Shown here: positions 3,802 through 30,021 of the stretch, one piece after another | How positions within the stretch are numbered: position 1 is the stretch's first letter | How the letters are laid out: every line of letters begins with the position of its first letter | Source of the DNA: a virus | IMG/VR virus record: IMGVR_UViG_3300009008_002419 | Coordinates: 29,804-93,803 of that record | DNA: 64,000 nt | Strand: one strand, 5' to 3' | Notes under the pieces: generated by a model | What the model was told of the DNA's origin: nothing | Seen by the model: the letters and a program-made list of their open reading frames with translations, nothing else | The model's database searches: none | Made by a program: the position numbers and the translations under genes

Positions 3802-3810
3802 TTTCGGTTA
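3802..3810 (-). promoter_or_regulatory. Non-SD start-adjacent motif TAACCGAAA, copy 1
   Basis: TAACCGAAA, followed by AACATAG and the ATG of the holin-like gene, replaces a Shine-Dalgarno sequence. TAA is the stop codon of the upstream gene. The 14-nt string TTTAACCGAAAAAC recurs before the gene starting at 19971. A third TAACCGAAA precedes the gene at 34618. Confidence 0.4.
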
Positions 3811-4422
3811 AAATTTAAATGACCACGACGGTAAGTTCCGGTCACCACGTAACCAATTTAATAGCAACTGTGCTGCTATTGTGGCTATAATTCTATTTCC
3901 TAATTGGATACGATTTTCATTAAGTTCCCATTCTAACTGGCAACTTCCTCCATCTTCTGGATTATCTAAATTTAGTGTTTTTAACATTGCTTCGCAAGTA
4001 TTTTTTTCGTGTTTTGTGAAAAAAGATACCATGGTGCTTTCAGATCTTAAATCAATCCAGTATGGATCTGTGTCTGCAATTGGATCAGAAATAAGAGTTT
4101 CAAATAGAAGCTGCCTAAAGGCTGTATTATCTACAGCACTCACAACGCAGTCATAACCCGTTATCTCTTTTGCAGTTGTAATCCTTTTTACCATTGGAGT
4201 AAACAAATAGCGAATATTCAAGGATTCCGCTTTTTGTTCTAAAATGTCTTCTTCTGTGAAGTTTTGGTAAGAAAGATTTTTGGTTTCTACGGTGTCATCA
4301 TCAGCAAAAACAAATTCACATCCCGGAAATTGTCCATGCTTTTGTAATTGAAATAAATGTTGGGCAAGCCAACTACCAATACCACCAGCACCTACGATTA
4401 ATATGTCTCTATTATTCGCCAT
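3808..4422 (-). CDS. ThiF/E1-like adenylating enzyme of a ubiquitin-like cassette
   Basis: A 204-aa Rossmann-type E1-like protein. The nucleotide-binding loop is GAGGIGS (residues 11-17), followed by an acidic strand end (FADDDTVE, 39-46), NLSYQNF and the KAESL helix that typify ThiF/MoeB/E1 enzymes. VVSAVDNTAFR (93-103) is the usual switch-strand D motif. By family, it would adenylate the C-terminal glycine of the ubiquitin-like protein encoded two genes upstream. Cys143 and Cys161 are candidate thioester residues. At the usual N-x-x-R-Q position the Arg is Tyr (NLSYQ), which is atypical. The protein is shorter than ThiF/MoeB (about 250 aa) and lacks a separate E1 cysteine domain. It overlaps the JAB gene by 11 nt, so the two are co-translated. 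Confidence 0.88.
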   Translation of the reverse strand: MANNRDILIVGAGGIGSWLAQHLFQLQKHGQFPGCEFVFADDDTVETKNLSYQNFTEEDILEQKAESLNIRYLFTPMVKRITTAKEITGYDCVVSAVDNTAFRQLLFETLISDPIADTDPYWIDLRSESTMVSFFTKHEKNTCEAMLKTLNLDNPEDGGSCQLEWELNENRIQLGNRIIATIAAQLLLNWLRGDRNLPSWSFKF

Positions 4423-4855
4423 TTAGTACACGTACCTCAGTAATGTGTTCCCACTCTCGGTTGTCTTCATCTCCGTCCCAATAGTAGAAAGCTAGGTTAT
4501 TAAATTTTGGTGAATAGATGATGTAAATTCCTTTATATCCAGCTCCGTTATGATCTGTCATAGACGGGATTGGTAGATTATTTGGATGTGTATGAAAGAT
4601 GCCTATAAAGTCTTTATCCGCTGATTTCTTCACTAATCTGGTGTCTTTAATGATTTGAAAGAATTCAGTCGGATCAGGCATATAATGAACAACAGCCATA
4701 TCACCAGGAGTGATATTAGTTGTTGGTGTAAACTCTTTAATCTCCCATTCATCGCCTTGTTGGCCAGTAAGCACTCCACAGACTTCTACTGTGGAGTGCT
4801 CATCGCCATAATCTGCAAGTTGCTGTAATAAAGAATTCTCTACAGCTACTTTCAT
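4412..4855 (-). CDS. JAB/MPN (JAMM) metallopeptidase
   Basis: A 147-aa protein with an intact JAMM zinc site: Glu24 in the VEVCGVLTG strand, then HTHP with His88 and His90, Ser98 and Asp101 in the spacing HxH-x7-S-x2-D. The family cleaves isopeptide bonds or tails behind ubiquitin-like modifiers. Here the likely substrate is a conjugate of the adjacent ubiquitin-like protein. That protein already ends in Gly-Gly, so deconjugation is more likely than maturation. I chose the ATG at 4855, two bases beyond the upstream stop and behind a GGGGG run, over an in-frame TTG at 4867. It lies between the modifier gene and the E1-like gene. Phage tail-fusion JAB domains exist, but this one stands alone. 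Confidence 0.9.
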   Translation of the reverse strand: MKVAVENSLLQQLADYGDEHSTVEVCGVLTGQQGDEWEIKEFTPTTNITPGDMAVVHYMPDPTEFFQIIKDTRLVKKSADKDFIGIFHTHPNNLPIPSMTDHNGAGYKGIYIIYSPKFNNLAFYYWDGDEDNREWEHITEVRVLNGE

Positions 4856-4856
4856 T

Positions 4857-5096
4857 CTAACCCCCAACGAGGGCGTTAGTTAATGTAAGATCTTCTGCTT
4901 CAATTAATTCGTCAACTGTTACATCCTGAGGATTTCTGTTGACGCCATCAATGTAAAGCCACTTATTCTGTTTGTCACACCGCTCGGTGATTTCTGCTAA
5001 TGCTTGACCAGCAGGAACTTCAATTTCATCGTGACCCGCAGTTGATACTACATTTAACTGTACTTTAGTAAATCTTTTATCTTTGTCAATTGCCAT
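4857..5096 (-). CDS. Ubiquitin-like modifier protein ending in Gly-Gly
   Basis: A 79-aa acidic protein with a beta-grasp-like pattern: beta hairpin (FTKVQLNVVS...DEIEVPAG), helix (ALAEITERC), strand (WLYIDG) and a final strand running to VGG at residues 77-79. The Gly-Gly is the exact C-terminus, as in a mature ubiquitin-like modifier, so no processing is needed before adenylation. It starts 8 nt after an AAGG-type SD (AAGGATTTAAATG). Two bases after its stop comes the JAMM peptidase, then the E1-like enzyme, the minimal set for reversible activation. No E2-like or RING-like gene is seen nearby. The sequence does not closely resemble any named family I can recall. The fold call rests on pattern, terminus and neighbours. 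Confidence 0.8.
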   Translation of the reverse strand: MAIDKDKRFTKVQLNVVSTAGHDEIEVPAGQALAEITERCDKQNKWLYIDGVNRNPQDVTVDELIEAEDLTLTNALVGG

Positions 5097-5129: not shown

Positions 5130-7394
5130 TTATTTGTTCAAGGTATTAATTTGAGTTGCAACTTTTTCATCGTTATGGAGCGCGAAGATTCGGTTAACGA
5201 TCTTATCTTTGCCAACCTGCGCAGTGGATTTATCAACGATACAAATATAGCTACCGGTATTATAATCATAGACTCCACAACGGTTTGTATGGGCATCATT
5301 GTTTTCAAGCTCTAAGAAATAGGTACCCTTTTTGCCGTCAATCTTATACCCTGTTCTCGTACTTCCACCAATCTGAGAAGTTTCAAGTTCAAGATTGAAC
5401 ATTTTAACAGTTTTGTTTAGAAGCTCTTCGCTCTTAGCGACTGCATTCTTAAAGGTTTCTGTAGCTTTTTCAATGATTCCTTTCATATCTTTGAGATCAA
5501 TGCCTTCAACAATATCTTCATTTAATAAGAGCTCAACCATATCAATTAAATTATTTTTATTTTCTATAGACAGAAAGCGATTAATAGCTTTAATAGTATA
5601 GTTGTTTTTATTAATGACGACAGTGTTTTTCCCATCTTTCTTTTCCAGCAAGAATTTAATCTTTAGTTGTTTATTCTGGAGTTCATCAAAGATGGTTGCA
5701 TCAACACCTAACTCGAGATATGAGTGTATTCGTAAAGAACACTTTTTTACTTCTTTTAAGAAGTAATCATAGTCTGTCTGATTTTGATAGCAGACAGCCC
5801 TTTCTAAACACTCTTGAACTTCACCTTTATTAATTCGGTGACCATTAATACGGTATGTAGTAACATAGTGTCCACGAGCATTTTGCTTTTCAACATGTTC
5901 AACCTTAAATTTAACAGAGCCTAATGTTCCCGCAATAGTACCATTGTGCTTGGCCATTATGTGAGAAATAAAGCCTGTCATAATATGATCAAAGTTAACA
6001 TGTTTAATATCACGAACTTCAGAAGCTCGTGTTAATAAATTTGAAAGCCACGTTTTTTCATTGCCCTCTGAAAAAGACAACTCTTCAGTTTCATATTTAA
6101 CAGAGTCGGCAGTGATTACCATGTCGTTAAATTTGATTTCGCCTTTTTGTTCGGTCAAGTTTTTAAATAGTGTCTTTGCTTTTTTCTTAAGCTTCTCACT
6201 AGCAACAGCTTCTTGCTTTTGTAGTGCCGCTTTTCTTAGCTCTCTATTTGTAATTCTATCAATAGAGTCATTATCGATTAGTACTACTTGTTCTTTTCTA
6301 CCAAGTACAAATTCATTAAGTAAGTTGGCCGAGATTGTTTTGGGATCTTCGAGTTCAATGAACATCCCCACATTGTTTGCTAACTGACCCAAAGCATTTG
6401 TACTAAATCTGTACATAAGTCTGCCTACGTCTAAATAGTCATAAAGATCAGGGTGATCTGCTTGAGTAAAAGAAGCTACTTTCCAGACCATTCCTGAAGT
6501 ATCAGCATTATCATAACGCCTTGAGTAGGGATCTGATTCAAACGAGCCCGAAACAATAGTTCGTGTATTATCAAATTCTGCGACTAAGCCAATAACAGAA
6601 TAAGTTGAGCTAGTTGCTATAATTTTAGCTACTGACGCATTCTCTACTTTTCCGCCATTAAGCTCTACTAAAGTTGTTTTACATTCAGGATGAAGTAACT
6701 CAATAAAAGTTTTATACAACTCTAAGTGTGATGTTGTTTTTTCACTTGTTGGGTATAGTTGGAATGCTTTAGTATCAAAAAAGAAATTTTTATTATCAGT
6801 TATGTATTTTTTAAGCTTATCTAATAATCCATCTGATGTATTTGCAGTTGCTTCTAAGGGCGGAACTAGATTTAGAAAAGTTAGCCCCCCACTGTAAGTT
6901 TTCCCACTTACAAAAACCTGACTAAGCGTTTTTAACTCATTTAAGAATGTTTCAGTAAATTTTTTAAAGTTAATCTTTATTAATACTGAGTTTACTTGTA
7001 CATCTTTATCGTTAGATTTCCCAATATGAAAGGTATCTAAAAATTGATTGATTGTGGGAGAATGTCCTTTAGCCCTTACATTATTTGCAAAGAAATAGTG
7101 GCCTTCACCTTCTGCAATATGTTTATCTAAAAACGTTTTATTTTCTGGAGATATACCTTCAAGAGCTACACCAAAAAAGTTGGTCGCTCCTTGATGATAT
7201 CTGTTATATAAAGGATTTATAACTAACAATAGTTTTGGTGATCTGTATAAATATACAAATCCTTGGTAGCCAAGTCGTTGGCCCGCTTTTGTAACACGCT
7301 CTTTGATTTTAGGTAATTGTTTAATGATTTCATCAGACAATCCAAAATCATAGATAGCGTTAAATGCTTCTAGGTTTTTTTCAGAGATATTCAT
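5130..7394 (-). CDS. Large protein of unknown function beside the ubiquitin-like cassette
   Basis: A 754-aa protein I do not recognise. It is soluble, with no signal peptide or membrane helix. It appears mixed alpha/beta in the first 370 residues and has a Lys/Glu-rich, probably coiled segment near residues 390-430. A further alpha/beta region carries several Cys and His residues, and the end is Gly/Asp-rich. No Walker, nuclease or glycosidase motif stands out. The start has an AAAGGATT SD 9 nt upstream. It sits 33 nt before the ubiquitin-like gene in the same direction, with no terminator between. It is therefore the best candidate for a target, E2/E3-like partner or effector of the modifier. 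That is inference from position only. Confidence 0.7.
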   Translation of the reverse strand: MNISEKNLEAFNAIYDFGLSDEIIKQLPKIKERVTKAGQRLGYQGFVYLYRSPKLLLVINPLYNRYHQGATNFFGVALEGISPENKTFLDKHIAEGEGHYFFANNVRAKGHSPTINQFLDTFHIGKSNDKDVQVNSVLIKINFKKFTETFLNELKTLSQVFVSGKTYSGGLTFLNLVPPLEATANTSDGLLDKLKKYITDNKNFFFDTKAFQLYPTSEKTTSHLELYKTFIELLHPECKTTLVELNGGKVENASVAKIIATSSTYSVIGLVAEFDNTRTIVSGSFESDPYSRRYDNADTSGMVWKVASFTQADHPDLYDYLDVGRLMYRFSTNALGQLANNVGMFIELEDPKTISANLLNEFVLGRKEQVVLIDNDSIDRITNRELRKAALQKQEAVASEKLKKKAKTLFKNLTEQKGEIKFNDMVITADSVKYETEELSFSEGNEKTWLSNLLTRASEVRDIKHVNFDHIMTGFISHIMAKHNGTIAGTLGSVKFKVEHVEKQNARGHYVTTYRINGHRINKGEVQECLERAVCYQNQTDYDYFLKEVKKCSLRIHSYLELGVDATIFDELQNKQLKIKFLLEKKDGKNTVVINKNNYTIKAINRFLSIENKNNLIDMVELLLNEDIVEGIDLKDMKGIIEKATETFKNAVAKSEELLNKTVKMFNLELETSQIGGSTRTGYKIDGKKGTYFLELENNDAHTNRCGVYDYNTGSYICIVDKSTAQVGKDKIVNRIFALHNDEKVATQINTLNK

Positions 7395-7903: not shown

Positions 7904-10900
7904 TTATTCTATTGTGCAGGTATCTCCATCACAATACTTTTCACCTTCTGCTTCTGAGCTTATATTAGTAAAATCTATTGGTTTTACCTTTTTAACTACT
8001 TCGTTATAAGCTTCTTCTGAAATTGCCTCATAGGGTGCTTGCTCATAGCCATGCTCTGCTAAAGGTAGAAATGATACACTTTTCAAACGATCTTCATATA
8101 ACTCTAAAGCGTTCTGTATATCGTTGGCTTCATTTTCTTTAAATGTAACAGTAACGCTTACTGAATTATCAGACCAGTATTGCTGGTATTTAGCGGCATT
8201 TTCTAGTTGTTCCCATATTGATACATCATATTTAGATTTTTCAAAATACTTTTCTTTAACAGGAAATTCCACCACTTTTGTTGATCTTCCCGAGTCATAG
8301 ACATCATTCTCAACTTTGTACCCTGCTTTTTCTATTGCTGGAAGTAAAGGATCATTTACAGAAAAGCGGATGCGTCTTATATAAAATTCGGCTTCAGGAT
8401 AATGAATTCCTGGGGTAGCTTGTGGCAACAAGCTCACGGAACCACTAGGTTTAACTGTAGTTGTTTTAATACTCTTAGGAATTGCTAACCAGTCAGAGAA
8501 TTTCTTATCTAATTCTTGAATATAATTATAACCGTCGTTAGCCCATTGCAACATCGTTCGTCTACCGTGTTTATTGAAAGATTGAATAATACCACTTTGG
8601 CTTAATCCAATACGTCTGTTTTTAAGCATTCTAGCGTTTGTTTCTGGCCAATGGGTGTTTACTAAGGTAACACTCTTTCCGTACAGATATGCGAGTTTCA
8701 GGGTGTGTTTAAAGTCAGCATACGTATCATGTCTATGTGGGAAGGTTTCAACTAAATTGCAAAGTTCGCGATCTTCAAGGGTCTGTTCTCCACAATTCAA
8801 GTTATTGAAATATAACCACTTACGCTTATTATTTCTAGTTTTACCTTCAAAACCACCAATAAAAAAATTATGGAATTCATCTACAGTTCCATTGTACACA
8901 ACGTCATTACCAACCAATTCGACAGAAACCACTCTGTGATTAAATGTTTCTGCTGCTTCTCTCAAAGATTTCCAGGAAGTAAATGGACTGCTCTTTCGAC
9001 TAATTTCTGCACTAACTCCAAATTTTTTACAGGCAGTCTGCCATTCACTTTTTTGTGGAATACGCTTTAGATTAAACTTTAATTCTGTAAATATTTTAAG
9101 CTGTTTTAACCTAAGCTTTTCTCGTTTTTTGTCGTATGTGACTTTCATACCTTTTTTGCGATGTTCAATATGCTGTAAATTTATATTGCTTTGTTTTATA
9201 CTACAAAATTGGCACTGACTTTGCTCTCTTCGTTTGTACTCTAATATTAATCTTTTACTGCATTTTTCACAATTTTTAATGATCTTTACGTGACCATCTA
9301 TGATCTTGCAATTATATCCTTCATTAATCCATTTTTTGTAAGTTCGTACAGTACGTGGATCTAGGTTTGACATGTCTTCAAAATTACATTTTACTGCAGC
9401 CCATTTAGATAGTCCAAGAACTCCTCCTAAATGATCATTCCGCCATTTAGAAAATTGCTCAGGCAGATTGTTGGATTTTGCATATTCTTTCCACTCGTTG
9501 TTAGAAAATCGCCTCTCAATTTTTTTAGTAAGTTTTAATGCGTGCTGTTGTAACTCTTCATTAGTAACACCTGAGTAATTAGAGTTCTTTTCCCCACTGC
9601 TATTGACAGAGTGCTTTTCTTTGTACCTTGCCCATTTCTCTTCAGACCATTCTGTTTGCGCTCGACGCATAGGATTACTATTTCCTTGCATTGCAATTCC
9701 GTGTAATTTGTCATGATCTTTTTTTGTCATAATTTCAAGATTTAAAGGTCTATTATCTTCTGTATTAAAATTCTTATGATGAACAACGCACCCTTTTTTT
9801 ATTTTAGTATTACTATAGAATTCTGCTATTAGCCTGTGTTCACAATTACTTACAACTCCAGGAGTATTTAACCAAAAATAATTTGCGTTAGGATTATTTA
9901 TTGGTGCTGCGACTTTAGTAGTAACCTTTAAACTATCTCCAACTTTAAGGTTCCTAGTTTCAATATAGTTTCCATCAGTGGTTAAGAACTTATGATTCTC
10001 TGTTACCTTAAGTGTGTTTCCATCATCCAAAGTTATTTTGTAAATAGGTTCGTTTTCTCCAGTAATTCGTGGATTACGCATAGTGCGTATGACTATTTTT
10101 CCTTTGGCATCAAAACAAAATACAGGAACATCTTTACCTTCTTCAGTCAATGTTTTAATTGATACATTACCTCTTCCATCAGCGGTATAAACTAAAGTAT
10201 CTCCCGTAATACAAGGGTTTACACCCATACAATAACTGTCATCGTTTAGTTCTCCCATACGTCCATACTTACGAGCATTTTCTAACCACACATACCCAGG
10301 CTCACCTTGTTTAATAGTGTTAGCAACACATTGAGAATAATCCATTCCTACAGTCGCTGAAACAGAGTTATTTGAAGCATATCTATTAAATAAAAGTTTT
10401 TCTTGATCATGTTTTAATTCTAAATATTCGGTATCTAATGGATCACCAAGTGCTAATGAAGCTGAACGTCGTATGTTTCCAGCAATTACACATTTTGAAA
10501 TATAAGTTTCAATATCAACAATATCACTCGAAGTTAAAAGTTCGTCTATACGTGAATTGAGTAATGTTTTGATATTTTGATGTAAATCTATTAAAGGTTG
10601 TGGACCACTTGCAGTTCCCCCAAAACCTTTAATAGGTTCTCCGAACGGTCTAATTTTTGAATAGTCAAATTTAGGTATTGACGTTCCTGTAAAATAACCA
10701 TTTAACACTAATCCTACTGACTCTACCCAACCTTCTCTGGAATCTGGAATTTCAAATACTAATCCATTCGTTTCTTTCGGCTCTTTTATTTTTAATTTAT
10801 TTGCTCCTAAGGTATCAAACCCTACACCAACTCCTAACATTAAAGCATCGGTTATAAATTCAAAAATTTCACTGCCTCGTTCATTAATCTGTTCTGTAGA

Positions 10901-11281
10901 AGCAAATGCACAATTTAGAAGTCCAGCCCCAGAACGTCCAGTTACATAATCTGTGCCCATCATCCAAAGATTTCTTCCACTTGGAAGAAATTTAAAATTC
11001 CAGATAGCATCGTACATTGCTTGGGCTGTTCGTTGTGACCTTGGATTATCCCAACGTAACCCATTTTTTGCTACATGTTCTTTTTGAATATTGAATACGC
11101 CCTCGACTACACGTTTTACTGTTTCCCAGAACTCTTCTGTGGTACCATCTTCTTTACGTCTTGCGTAAGTTCGTTTATAAACTATATAACCAAGCGGACC
11201 CCATTCAGGTTGCTTATTTTTATAGTTTTCAAGAAACTGATCAGACAGGTAAAATCGTCTATGTGTTGTCGGTTGAACCAA
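7904..11281 (-). CDS. nrdJ: Class II (B12-dependent) ribonucleotide reductase with intein
   Basis: A 1125-aa precursor that would give a 652-aa reductase after excision of a 473-residue intein (residues 357-829). It reduces ribonucleotides to deoxyribonucleotides using adenosylcobalamin. Motifs include SGRNLWMMGT, LLNCAFAS (redox Cys124), NPCGEQTLEDRELC with the thiyl Cys and a second redox Cys 11 residues later, KPSGSVSLLPQATPG in the barrel, and a C-terminal CDGDTC. The C-x4-C tail and overall layout resemble the monomeric Lactobacillus leichmannii triphosphate reductase (739 aa). The intein splits NP from CGEQ. The start overlaps the dUTPase end by 23 nt. With dUTPase it forms a dNTP-supply pair, and activity would depend on host or environmental cobalamin. 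Confidence 0.95.
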   Translation of the reverse strand: MVQPTTHRRFYLSDQFLENYKNKQPEWGPLGYIVYKRTYARRKEDGTTEEFWETVKRVVEGVFNIQKEHVAKNGLRWDNPRSQRTAQAMYDAIWNFKFLPSGRNLWMMGTDYVTGRSGAGLLNCAFASTEQINERGSEIFEFITDALMLGVGVGFDTLGANKLKIKEPKETNGLVFEIPDSREGWVESVGLVLNGYFTGTSIPKFDYSKIRPFGEPIKGFGGTASGPQPLIDLHQNIKTLLNSRIDELLTSSDIVDIETYISKCVIAGNIRRSASLALGDPLDTEYLELKHDQEKLLFNRYASNNSVSATVGMDYSQCVANTIKQGEPGYVWLENARKYGRMGELNDDSYCMGVNPCITGDTLVYTADGRGNVSIKTLTEEGKDVPVFCFDAKGKIVIRTMRNPRITGENEPIYKITLDDGNTLKVTENHKFLTTDGNYIETRNLKVGDSLKVTTKVAAPINNPNANYFWLNTPGVVSNCEHRLIAEFYSNTKIKKGCVVHHKNFNTEDNRPLNLEIMTKKDHDKLHGIAMQGNSNPMRRAQTEWSEEKWARYKEKHSVNSSGEKNSNYSGVTNEELQQHALKLTKKIERRFSNNEWKEYAKSNNLPEQFSKWRNDHLGGVLGLSKWAAVKCNFEDMSNLDPRTVRTYKKWINEGYNCKIIDGHVKIIKNCEKCSKRLILEYKRREQSQCQFCSIKQSNINLQHIEHRKKGMKVTYDKKREKLRLKQLKIFTELKFNLKRIPQKSEWQTACKKFGVSAEISRKSSPFTSWKSLREAAETFNHRVVSVELVGNDVVYNGTVDEFHNFFIGGFEGKTRNNKRKWLYFNNLNCGEQTLEDRELCNLVETFPHRHDTYADFKHTLKLAYLYGKSVTLVNTHWPETNARMLKNRRIGLSQSGIIQSFNKHGRRTMLQWANDGYNYIQELDKKFSDWLAIPKSIKTTTVKPSGSVSLLPQATPGIHYPEAEFYIRRIRFSVNDPLLPAIEKAGYKVENDVYDSGRSTKVVEFPVKEKYFEKSKYDVSIWEQLENAAKYQQYWSDNSVSVTVTFKENEANDIQNALELYEDRLKSVSFLPLAEHGYEQAPYEAISEEAYNEVVKKVKPIDFTNISSEAEGEKYCDGDTCTIE
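8795..10213 (-). mobile_element. Intein with HNH homing endonuclease in the RNR gene
   Basis: This segment encodes 473 residues from Cys357 (CITGDTLVYTADG, block A) to Asn829. Block B is TLKVTENHKFLTTDG. A block F-like segment (NGTVDEFHNFFIGG) and a final YFNNLN precede Cys+1, which is the reductase catalytic Cys (codon at 8792-8794). Between blocks B and F lies an HNH endonuclease (CEHRLIAEF...VVHHKN...NLEIM, precursor residues about 480-525). A CxxC...CxxC zinc ribbon (CEKCSK...CQFC) and DNA-binding-like repeats follow. The residue before the terminal Asn is Leu rather than the usual His. The intein is in frame and intact, so it is probably spliced and mobile. Confidence 0.92.
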
Positions 11282-28545: not shown

Positions 28546-30021
28546 TTAAGTCCTTAGTTTCTTATCACAAACGAAATTACAAAAAACTCCACACTTTAGT
28601 TTCCCGTTTTCAAAAGAATCTGATCGATTTTCTTGAACTTGTATTTGAGTACTAAAGAAATGAGGTGCACCTAAAGGACAATTAATTTTGATTGCATTCT
28701 TAATTGTTCTTTTTAAATTTTGTGCTTTGTTGTTTATATTGTCATAAAGAATTTTATTCTTTAAAAAATGCTTTACATAAACAAGTGCATTCTCTGGATC
28801 GTCTGTATGGTTATCAATAATTTTAATTATATCTTTGTCAGTGATATTTAATTTGAAATCTTCTGGGGATATTTTTTCTAGCTGTTTATTTACTCTCTTA
28901 CGTAAAAATTCAACTTTCTCCATACTAATGTTTGCCCGCCCTGTACCATATCTATCTGCGATACGCAGATCTAATAAATTATGTATATTGTCGGGCCCAG
29001 CTTTATTAATGAGCTTTCTAACACTTAAGTCAGAGATTTTCTTTGACGCATCAAAAAGATGAAGGGATACTAAAGAACTTATTTTTTTAATAAAATCTTT
29101 TTTGAATCCCCATCTAAATAAAATACGTTCAGTGAGAAAAGCTCCTGCTTTCTCATGCCCATAAAAATGTAACTCATCATTAATATTAGTTTGGCACTGA
29201 GGTTTACCAATATCATGTAAAAGAGCGGCTGCTCTGATTATTTTACAACGCGGGTGCGACAGTTTAACAGAGTCAAGCGCATACATAATATGTTGAAAGA
29301 GATCTAGATTTTTACGTTTATTTGATTGTGGTATGCCTGTGCATAATGCGAGTTCTGGAAAAAAATCATCTAGAATTTTTGCAGAGCGTAGAATATTAAA
29401 AACTTTAGAAGGAGTTTCAATCCGTGTAAAGATTTTAAGCATTTCTCTATTGATTTGAGCAGAATGTGCTAAGACCAGTTTAAATCGGTAATCTTTTATA
29501 GCCTCATTAGTTTTTGTTTCTAATGACCAGCCCGTACCTAGTAAACCAGCTAATACAGGCGCACGTAAGATACGGACTTTTGATTCTAAGATCTTTTTAT
29601 AAGGATCTCCGATAAATTTTATTGTCTTGTTTTCTAAATCCTTTTCACCATCAAAAAAATCATACCACTGATCATTTAGTGGATCGTAGTATAATGCATT
29701 GATTGTGAAATCTCTTGACTCGGCATCCTCTTTTAGTGATGCTGTATATTCAAATTTGTAATAAGTATTTTCGAGCCAAACTCTTTTCATAGGATACAAT
29801 GTAAAGTCTGTATCCATGTATCTAATTGTAACTGAAGTAGAAAAAGGATCAATATTGATAATTTTATCCTTGAAGCTTTTCTGTAATTCAGTTAATGTGG
29901 CTTTTACAGATATGTCATAATAACGGATTGTGTCTTTTAATTTTAAATCTCTTGCTGTTCCCCCACAGATGTAAGCTGTGTATCCGTGAGATTTTAAGAA
30001 TTTGATAATACTTTTAACCAT
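28546..30021 (-). CDS. CCA-adding enzyme / poly(A) polymerase-like protein with HD domain
   Basis: A 491-aa nucleotidyltransferase-family protein. The head has YICGGTARDLKLKD (residues 17-30, GGxxRD), then YYDIS and SLKEDAESRDFTINALYYD, the typical neck of class II tRNA nucleotidyltransferases. An HD domain (AAALLHDIGKPQ) follows, as in bacterial CCA enzymes with 2'3'-cAMP phosphatase activity. The Cys-containing C-terminal end (CPLGAPHFF...CGVFCNFVC) is unusual. In the catalytic DxD pair the first Asp appears to be Tyr (Y34-Y35-D36 where E. coli Pap has D-F-D), so nucleotide addition may be lost or altered while the HD part stays intact. No tRNA genes are visible in the window. Confidence 0.88.
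   Translation of the reverse strand: MVKSIIKFLKSHGYTAYICGGTARDLKLKDTIRYYDISVKATLTELQKSFKDKIINIDPFSTSVTIRYMDTDFTLYPMKRVWLENTYYKFEYTASLKEDAESRDFTINALYYDPLNDQWYDFFDGEKDLENKTIKFIGDPYKKILESKVRILRAPVLAGLLGTGWSLETKTNEAIKDYRFKLVLAHSAQINREMLKIFTRIETPSKVFNILRSAKILDDFFPELALCTGIPQSNKRKNLDLFQHIMYALDSVKLSHPRCKIIRAAALLHDIGKPQCQTNINDELHFYGHEKAGAFLTERILFRWGFKKDFIKKISSLVSLHLFDASKKISDLSVRKLINKAGPDNIHNLLDLRIADRYGTGRANISMEKVEFLRKRVNKQLEKISPEDFKLNITDKDIIKIIDNHTDDPENALVYVKHFLKNKILYDNINNKAQNLKRTIKNAIKINCPLGAPHFFSTQIQVQENRSDSFENGKLKCGVFCNFVCDKKLRT

Follow-up and report, generated by a model that had tools for sequence, protein, structure and literature searches.

Can a virus of prokaryotes encode a complete ubiquitin-like tagging pathway, and what would it use such a pathway for? 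The question is raised by a compact gene module in the 64,000-nucleotide stretch of DNA analysed here (the window), which covers bases 29804-93803 of a virus record. The record is 93.8 kb long and includes genes for a terminase and a tail sheath. The window also encodes a sigma-70 factor, PolA and a ribonucleotide reductase, and the source virus is a tailed phage with a bacterial host. From the sequences, we consider it quite likely that the module is a four-gene virus cassette for ubiquitin-like conjugation and deconjugation, by which a ubiquitin-like protein (Ubl) would be joined to host or viral proteins during infection. The features of the module are as follows, in the order of the genes.

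5130-7394, minus strand: large fourth component of the module, 754 aa, with an N-terminal region of ~480 aa; directly upstream of the Ubl gene in window-type phages
5133-5507, minus strand: probable E2-like (UBC/UEV-fold) C-terminal domain of the 754-aa protein, with a candidate catalytic Cys718 (YICIVD) at 5241-5243
4857-5096, minus strand: Ubl, 79 aa, ending NALVGG-stop, with the two Gly codons at 4860-4865
4412-4855, minus strand: JAB protein (JAMM/MPN+ metallopeptidase), 147 aa from the ATG at 4855, with the active-site motif HTHPNNLPIPSMTD at 4553-4594
3808-4422, minus strand: E1-like adenylyltransferase, 204 aa, with the GAGGIGS loop at 4372-4392, K64, D98 and a candidate thioester Cys161 (SCQ) at 3940-3942

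The open reading frame coordinates bear out the three packed minus-strand genes described in an earlier note on this DNA. The Ubl, JAB and E1 genes, which follow the 754-aa gene in this order, lie 1 base apart or overlap, and the E1 gene overlaps the 3′ end of the JAB gene by 11 bases. The JAB start was placed by the ORF caller at a TTG (4867); the ATG at 4855 (MKVAVENS), one base after the Ubl stop, was judged better. The module is flanked by the ribonucleotide reductase gene on one side and by the sigma factor and PolA genes on the other, and this position is conserved across the phage group. The ribonucleotide reductase ORF (7904-11281, minus strand, 1125 aa) has an apparent intein-like insert, its homologues in L056 and L057 being ~660 aa long. 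On the plus strand, positions 35386-61630 hold a series of very large ORFs of up to 1508 aa; no informative PHROG match was obtained for those scanned, and the run possibly comprises structural genes of an undescribed phage group.

The modifier, the peptidase and the activating enzyme

The 79-aa protein alone has no convincing family match in Pfam, PHROGs, NCBIfam or PADLOC. Its AlphaFold2 model (mean pLDDT 82.7, pTM 0.63) has the beta-beta-alpha-beta-beta-(alpha)-beta order of a beta-grasp fold. The 50 best matches listed in a Foldseek search of the PDB are mostly ubiquitin, NEDD8, SUMO, ISG15 and ubiquilin-type domains, some of them in fusions or complexes, and among these the probability is mostly 0.9-1.0, the best E value 1.5e-3 and the TM score ~0.5. 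Structure prediction and ubiquitin-family PDB matches thus agree with the beta-grasp fold that had been proposed from the letters, and the protein is predicted to be a ubiquitin-like modifier with a ubiquitin fold.

The exact C-terminus of the window protein is Gly-Gly, as the earlier note had read it, and its homologues conserve this end. The Ubl of L010, a 180-kb contig, is 45% identical to the window Ubl and ends with LIGG. A two-sequence Ubl profile found a Ubl in all ten records searched from a second virus group (each with a distant E1), and every one of these matches extends through the Gly-Gly end; TFB-like genes indicate that this group is probably archaeal, and its members are referred to here as archaeal-type viruses. 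Gly-Gly is present in 21/21 distinct Ubls of the first comparison and in every Ubl added later, and in the full count in 42 of 42 units (18 from window-type phages, 14 from archaeal viruses and 10 from archaeal genomes), from which the Ubl of L083 was left out because its reading frame is broken.

What follows the Gly-Gly is variable: nothing, a few to ~23 variable residues, or a domain fused to it (a second Ubl, an E1 or another one). The tail has 0-3 residues in nearly all viral Ubls, 7 in L316 and up to ~23 in archaeal genome contigs; in archaeal-type viruses it is absent or consists of 1-2 residues (QE, SE, SC, CY, NL, HC, SL, KL, Q, K or N). All 18 distinct Ubls of window-type phages carry Gly-Gly, and two of them are fused through it to another domain, of ~160 aa (L184 228-944 and L179 2-589). 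Three Poseidoniales/Euryarchaeota contigs encode longer fusions, namely Ubl-GG-Ubl-GG-E1 (L096 6458-7732), Ubl-GG-Ubl-GG-E2-like (L088 5541-6992) and Ubl-GG-E2-like (L097 1297-2379), arrangements that are reminiscent of polyubiquitin precursors. Judged from the sequences, a fixed Gly-Gly ahead of sequence that is variable and dispensable matches the pattern of ubiquitin-like precursors that undergo processing.

The JAB protein matches Prok-JAB above the Pfam cut-off (E=3.5e-14). Its zinc site is complete, with E24, H88-x-H90, seven residues, S98, two residues and D101, in agreement with the earlier reading of an HxH-x7-S-x2-D site, and H88, H90, P91, S98 and D101 are the sole invariant residues in an alignment of 16 divergent JABs. 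The closest curated family is the archaeal desampylase NF041370 (67.8 bits; cut-off 130). JAB profiles of PADLOC (9e-10) and PHROG tail families (phrog_5556, 5e-10) are matched as well. The tail-family match would fit a function in virion assembly like that of the lambda tail proteins I, which is Ub-like, and K, a JAB, as would the pairing of a Ub-like with a JAB gene in the tail operons of lambdoid phages (Iyer et al., 2006; PMC1779556). We regard this as very improbable: the lambdoid tail pairs come without an E1, and the window module lies among replication and transcription genes, while the recognised sheath and terminase genes are elsewhere in the genome.

The E1-like protein passes the Pfam cut-off for ThiF (E=2.2e-14), and its nucleotide loop, GAGGIGS, is intact, as had been noticed. 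In an alignment of 14 E1s, the GxGGIGS loop (ATP-binding), K64 (catalytic Lys) and D98 (Mg-binding Asp) are invariant. So is S160-C161-Q162 in 14 relatives, which aligns with the SCS of PRTRC E1s and makes Cys161 a candidate thioester cysteine. The Arg of the NLxRQ motif of MoeB and PRTRC E1s is replaced by Tyr in the window protein (NLSYQNF), and this could alter adenylation. The PRTRC ThiF profile TIGR03736 gives 56.6 bits, below its cut-off of 144.75, and a profile-profile E value of 5e-34; the UbaA profile (24 bits; cut-off 450) and the PADLOC E1-E2 profiles match weakly. In the E1 tree, window-type phages, archaeal-type viruses, Methanoperedens and Poseidoniales form one clade (98/96), and the PRTRC E1s form a separate clade (100/98) outside it.

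ThiF/MoeB-type E1s, Gly-Gly beta-grasp proteins and JABs also build sulfur-transfer modules (PMC1779556). The window E1 might accordingly make a Ubl thiocarboxylate for metabolite, tRNA or cysteine synthesis, as in ThiS/MoaD systems or in CysO with its peptidase, and a tRNA nucleotidyltransferase-like gene is present in the window (28546-30021). Such a sulfur-carrier function appears unlikely, however. Rhodanese and ThiS/MoaD family members are absent from the 93.8-kb record and no sulfur gene was recognised beside the module; the best folds among the Ubl matches listed are ubiquitin, NEDD8 and SUMO rather than ThiS/MoaD, and the fourth gene encodes a probable E2-like cysteine domain.

The 754-aa protein and its C-terminal domain

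The earlier note had seen no recognisable E2. This stands for the known families, since profile searches found neither PF14460 nor PF00179 in the virus genome, but it overlooked the conserved fourth gene with its probable E2-like domain. By sequence, searches of Pfam, PHROGs, NCBIfam and PADLOC gave no convincing identification of the 754-aa protein, and its E2-like domain has no useful match in Pfam scans or PDB sequence profiles. Archaeal-type viruses encode a protein of ~400 aa that shares a homologous C-terminus with the 754-aa protein (profile comparison, 93% probability, P 4e-8). The E2-like domains share a GxxICI(D/V) motif with an invariant Cys, usually followed by a G-D segment and an ALxND-like helix. 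The E2 motif is GxICLDIL, and the Poseidoniales domains have ICIDIL or a sequence near it.

The C-terminal 370 aa of the 754-aa protein were modelled with AlphaFold2 from a shallow alignment (pLDDT 83.6). The model runs helix, four strands, Cys loop and helix, an E2/UEV-like order of elements. Its highest-probability Foldseek matches in the PDB are TSG101 UEV domains, at a non-significant level (probability 0.35, E=1.2). The profiles were also compared with four canonical human E2 sequences, entered by hand, using column shuffles as the reference. The match was weak, but the archaeal-type E2-like profile beat 199 of 200 shuffles and the extended E2-like profile beat all 200, with the cysteines in register; for the window-type profile alone, 31/200 shuffles reached its score. 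The fusions of Ubl to this domain in L088 and L097 were also counted for the E2-like reading. From motif, model and profile comparisons, we assign the C-terminal domain as E2-like with moderate confidence.

Linkage, distribution and selection of the module

Gene linkage was surveyed through an outside gene, PolA, chosen against bias. Among the 24 best PolA loci (L158-L181, several being near-copies, ~14 lineages; the sequence of L179/L180 starts within the Ubl gene), 23 contain Ubl, JAB and E1, so the JAB-ThiF linkage on which the first reading had relied is upheld, and 21 also have the large gene. The exception is L170, in which the large gene, Ubl, JAB and E1 are missing as one clean block. 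This locus retains the ribonucleotide reductase, the small gene after it, the sigma factor, PolA and a homologue, recognised by eye, of the small post-E1 gene in L048. PolA relatives beyond the best 24 are mostly without the module. The linkage and the one-block absence in L170 therefore define the module as four genes, and as accessory. The dN/dS values are 0.02-0.2 in nearly all pairs (0.42 in one E1 pair of low divergence), and the module genes are under purifying selection. The conservation of the JAB active-site residues and of Gly-Gly, with low dN/dS, is far beyond chance.

In the cultured-phage collection, no relative was found by JAB or DNA and none convincing by Ubl, while E1 gave partial matches. 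Several Poseidoniales E1s adjoin ordinary chromosomal genes, and the system is therefore also present in cells. Between ordinary chromosomal genes in the Poseidoniales loci L085, L087 and L095, a cluster of E1, JAB and a 78-aa gene is conserved; an adjacent Ubl was not detected in these clusters. In Methanoperedens, a 166-aa protein with the C-terminus GKGG is encoded directly 3′ of E1 (L078 7670-8170 and L082 7640-8140) and may be an unrecognised modifier.

The distribution bears on a counter-defence function, in which the phage JAB as a deconjugase, together with a decoy Ubl and the E1, would strip or saturate Bil-type host immunity and no targets would be tagged by the phage. PMC12660748 cites Bil as a use of Ubl conjugation by bacteria against phages, and describes the Borg elements of archaea as having many putative deSAMPylases that are thought to counter host tagging. 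The cellular homologues in Poseidoniales chromosomes and the dispensability of the module (L170) would also fit. A deconjugase by itself would be enough for this purpose, however, whereas purifying selection has kept the E1 and the Ubl as well as the probable E2-like partner, the module genes travel as one block, and the Ubl-E1 and Ubl-E2-like fusions indicate a working pathway. Counter-defence is accordingly given a minor but real share of the probability, and real conjugation is favoured over a pure decoy because the activating, trimming and probable transfer parts are intact.

Relation to known systems and the proposed pathway

Operons with E1, E2, JAB and Ubl genes are known in bacteria (Iyer et al., 2006; PMC1779556). 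One of them, operon type 6d in that work, is PRTRC, with the Ubl PRTRC-C, the E2-like PRTRC-B, the JAB PRTRC-A and the E1 PRTRC-ThiF. The window module resembles PRTRC in its small Ubl, its separate JAB and E1, its location on a mobile replicon and its probable E2-like protein encoded upstream; the PRTRC E1 is also the closest well-known E1 and has the same SC cysteine position. However, the PRTRC-C proteins examined have GTKG or GAKG near the end, whereas the window Ubl ends in Gly-Gly, and profile-profile comparison gave no match between the window Ubl and PRTRC-C or between the 754-aa protein and PRTRC-B or PRTRC-F. PRTRC-B as the closest E2 was rejected, the profile match being absent though the motif is similar by eye. 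Membership in PRTRC was rejected too: the E1 falls below the TIGR03736 cut-off and in a separate clade of the tree, and the partners are missing. On Planococcus and Lysinibacillus plasmids, ThiF genes and genes for DNA replication adjoin those of JABs (L068 4216-4941 and L069 3910-4983) whose long N-terminal region resembles a Ubl by eye.

The earlier note had linked the trio to Bil, and this tie was not borne out. The module shares the logic of Ubl, E1, JAB and, probably, E2 with Bil, type II Bub and CBASS Cap2-Cap3, but it is virus-encoded and has neither an E2-E1 fusion nor a known E2 family. The E2-E1 arrangement of Bil in a bacterial defence locus was not found, PADLOC profiles fit the JAB and the E1 just partially, and in the tree the E1 falls in a clade with viral and archaeal sequences. 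No cGAS-like gene was seen in the module neighbourhood examined.

The archaeal sampylation system (SAMP, UbaA and HvJAMM1) is likewise a minimal set of Ubl, E1 and JAMM, although its SAMP genes are cellular and SAMPs are MoaD/ThiS-like. The SAMP genes are generally scattered and are not known to form a single operon. The loci of Poseidoniales (MGII) share the E1 clade, the E2-like GxxICID domain and a Gly-Gly Ubl with an adjacent JAB; unlike the window module, they are cellular where examined, and their Ubl is often duplicated, tailed or fused. Those of Methanoperedens share the E1 clade and the E2-like GxxICID domain, but a recognisable Ubl or JAB was not seen nearby.

The pathway that we propose for the conjugation cassette has four steps. 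First, the JAMM peptidase would trim the Ubl to Gly-Gly, a step for which relatives with a tailed or fused Ubl give a strong indication; since Gly-Gly is already exposed in the window Ubl, the enzyme here would mainly deconjugate. Second, the E1 would adenylate the terminal Gly and form a thioester on Cys161, as its conserved residues suggest. Third, the Ubl would be handed to Cys718 of the E2-like domain, an assignment of moderate confidence, and the long N-terminus of the 754-aa protein may choose the targets. Finally, lysines in proteins of the host or the virus would receive the Ubl, and the JAMM peptidase would take it off again. Because the module lies between the ribonucleotide reductase and the sigma and PolA genes, our best guess is that it is replication or transcription proteins that are tagged during host takeover.

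Viruses hijack or remove ubiquitin-like tags, and bacteria tag phages. A prokaryotic virus that itself encodes the tag, the enzyme that activates it, a probable carrier enzyme and a remover would represent a new way to seize the cell. In the open literature searched, we found no viral E1-Ubl-JAB cassette described, and the four-gene cassette is apparently without earlier description in viruses. We hold it slightly more probable than an even chance that the module is the first complete pathway of ubiquitin-like conjugation (Ubl, E1, E2-like and JAMM) to be seen in a virus, that it belongs to a lineage of its own which tailed phages share with archaeal viruses and euryarchaeal chromosomes and which includes polyubiquitin-like precursors (Ubl-Ubl-E1 and Ubl-Ubl-E2) and a new, highly divergent E2 family, and that its role in viruses is to modify proteins of the host or their own during takeover. 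The parts are small and tightly packed, and conjugation is therefore directly testable by co-expression in E. coli. It is relevant to the early history of ubiquitin that Poseidoniales and Methanoperedens genomes contain this lineage too, with tandem Ubl precursors.
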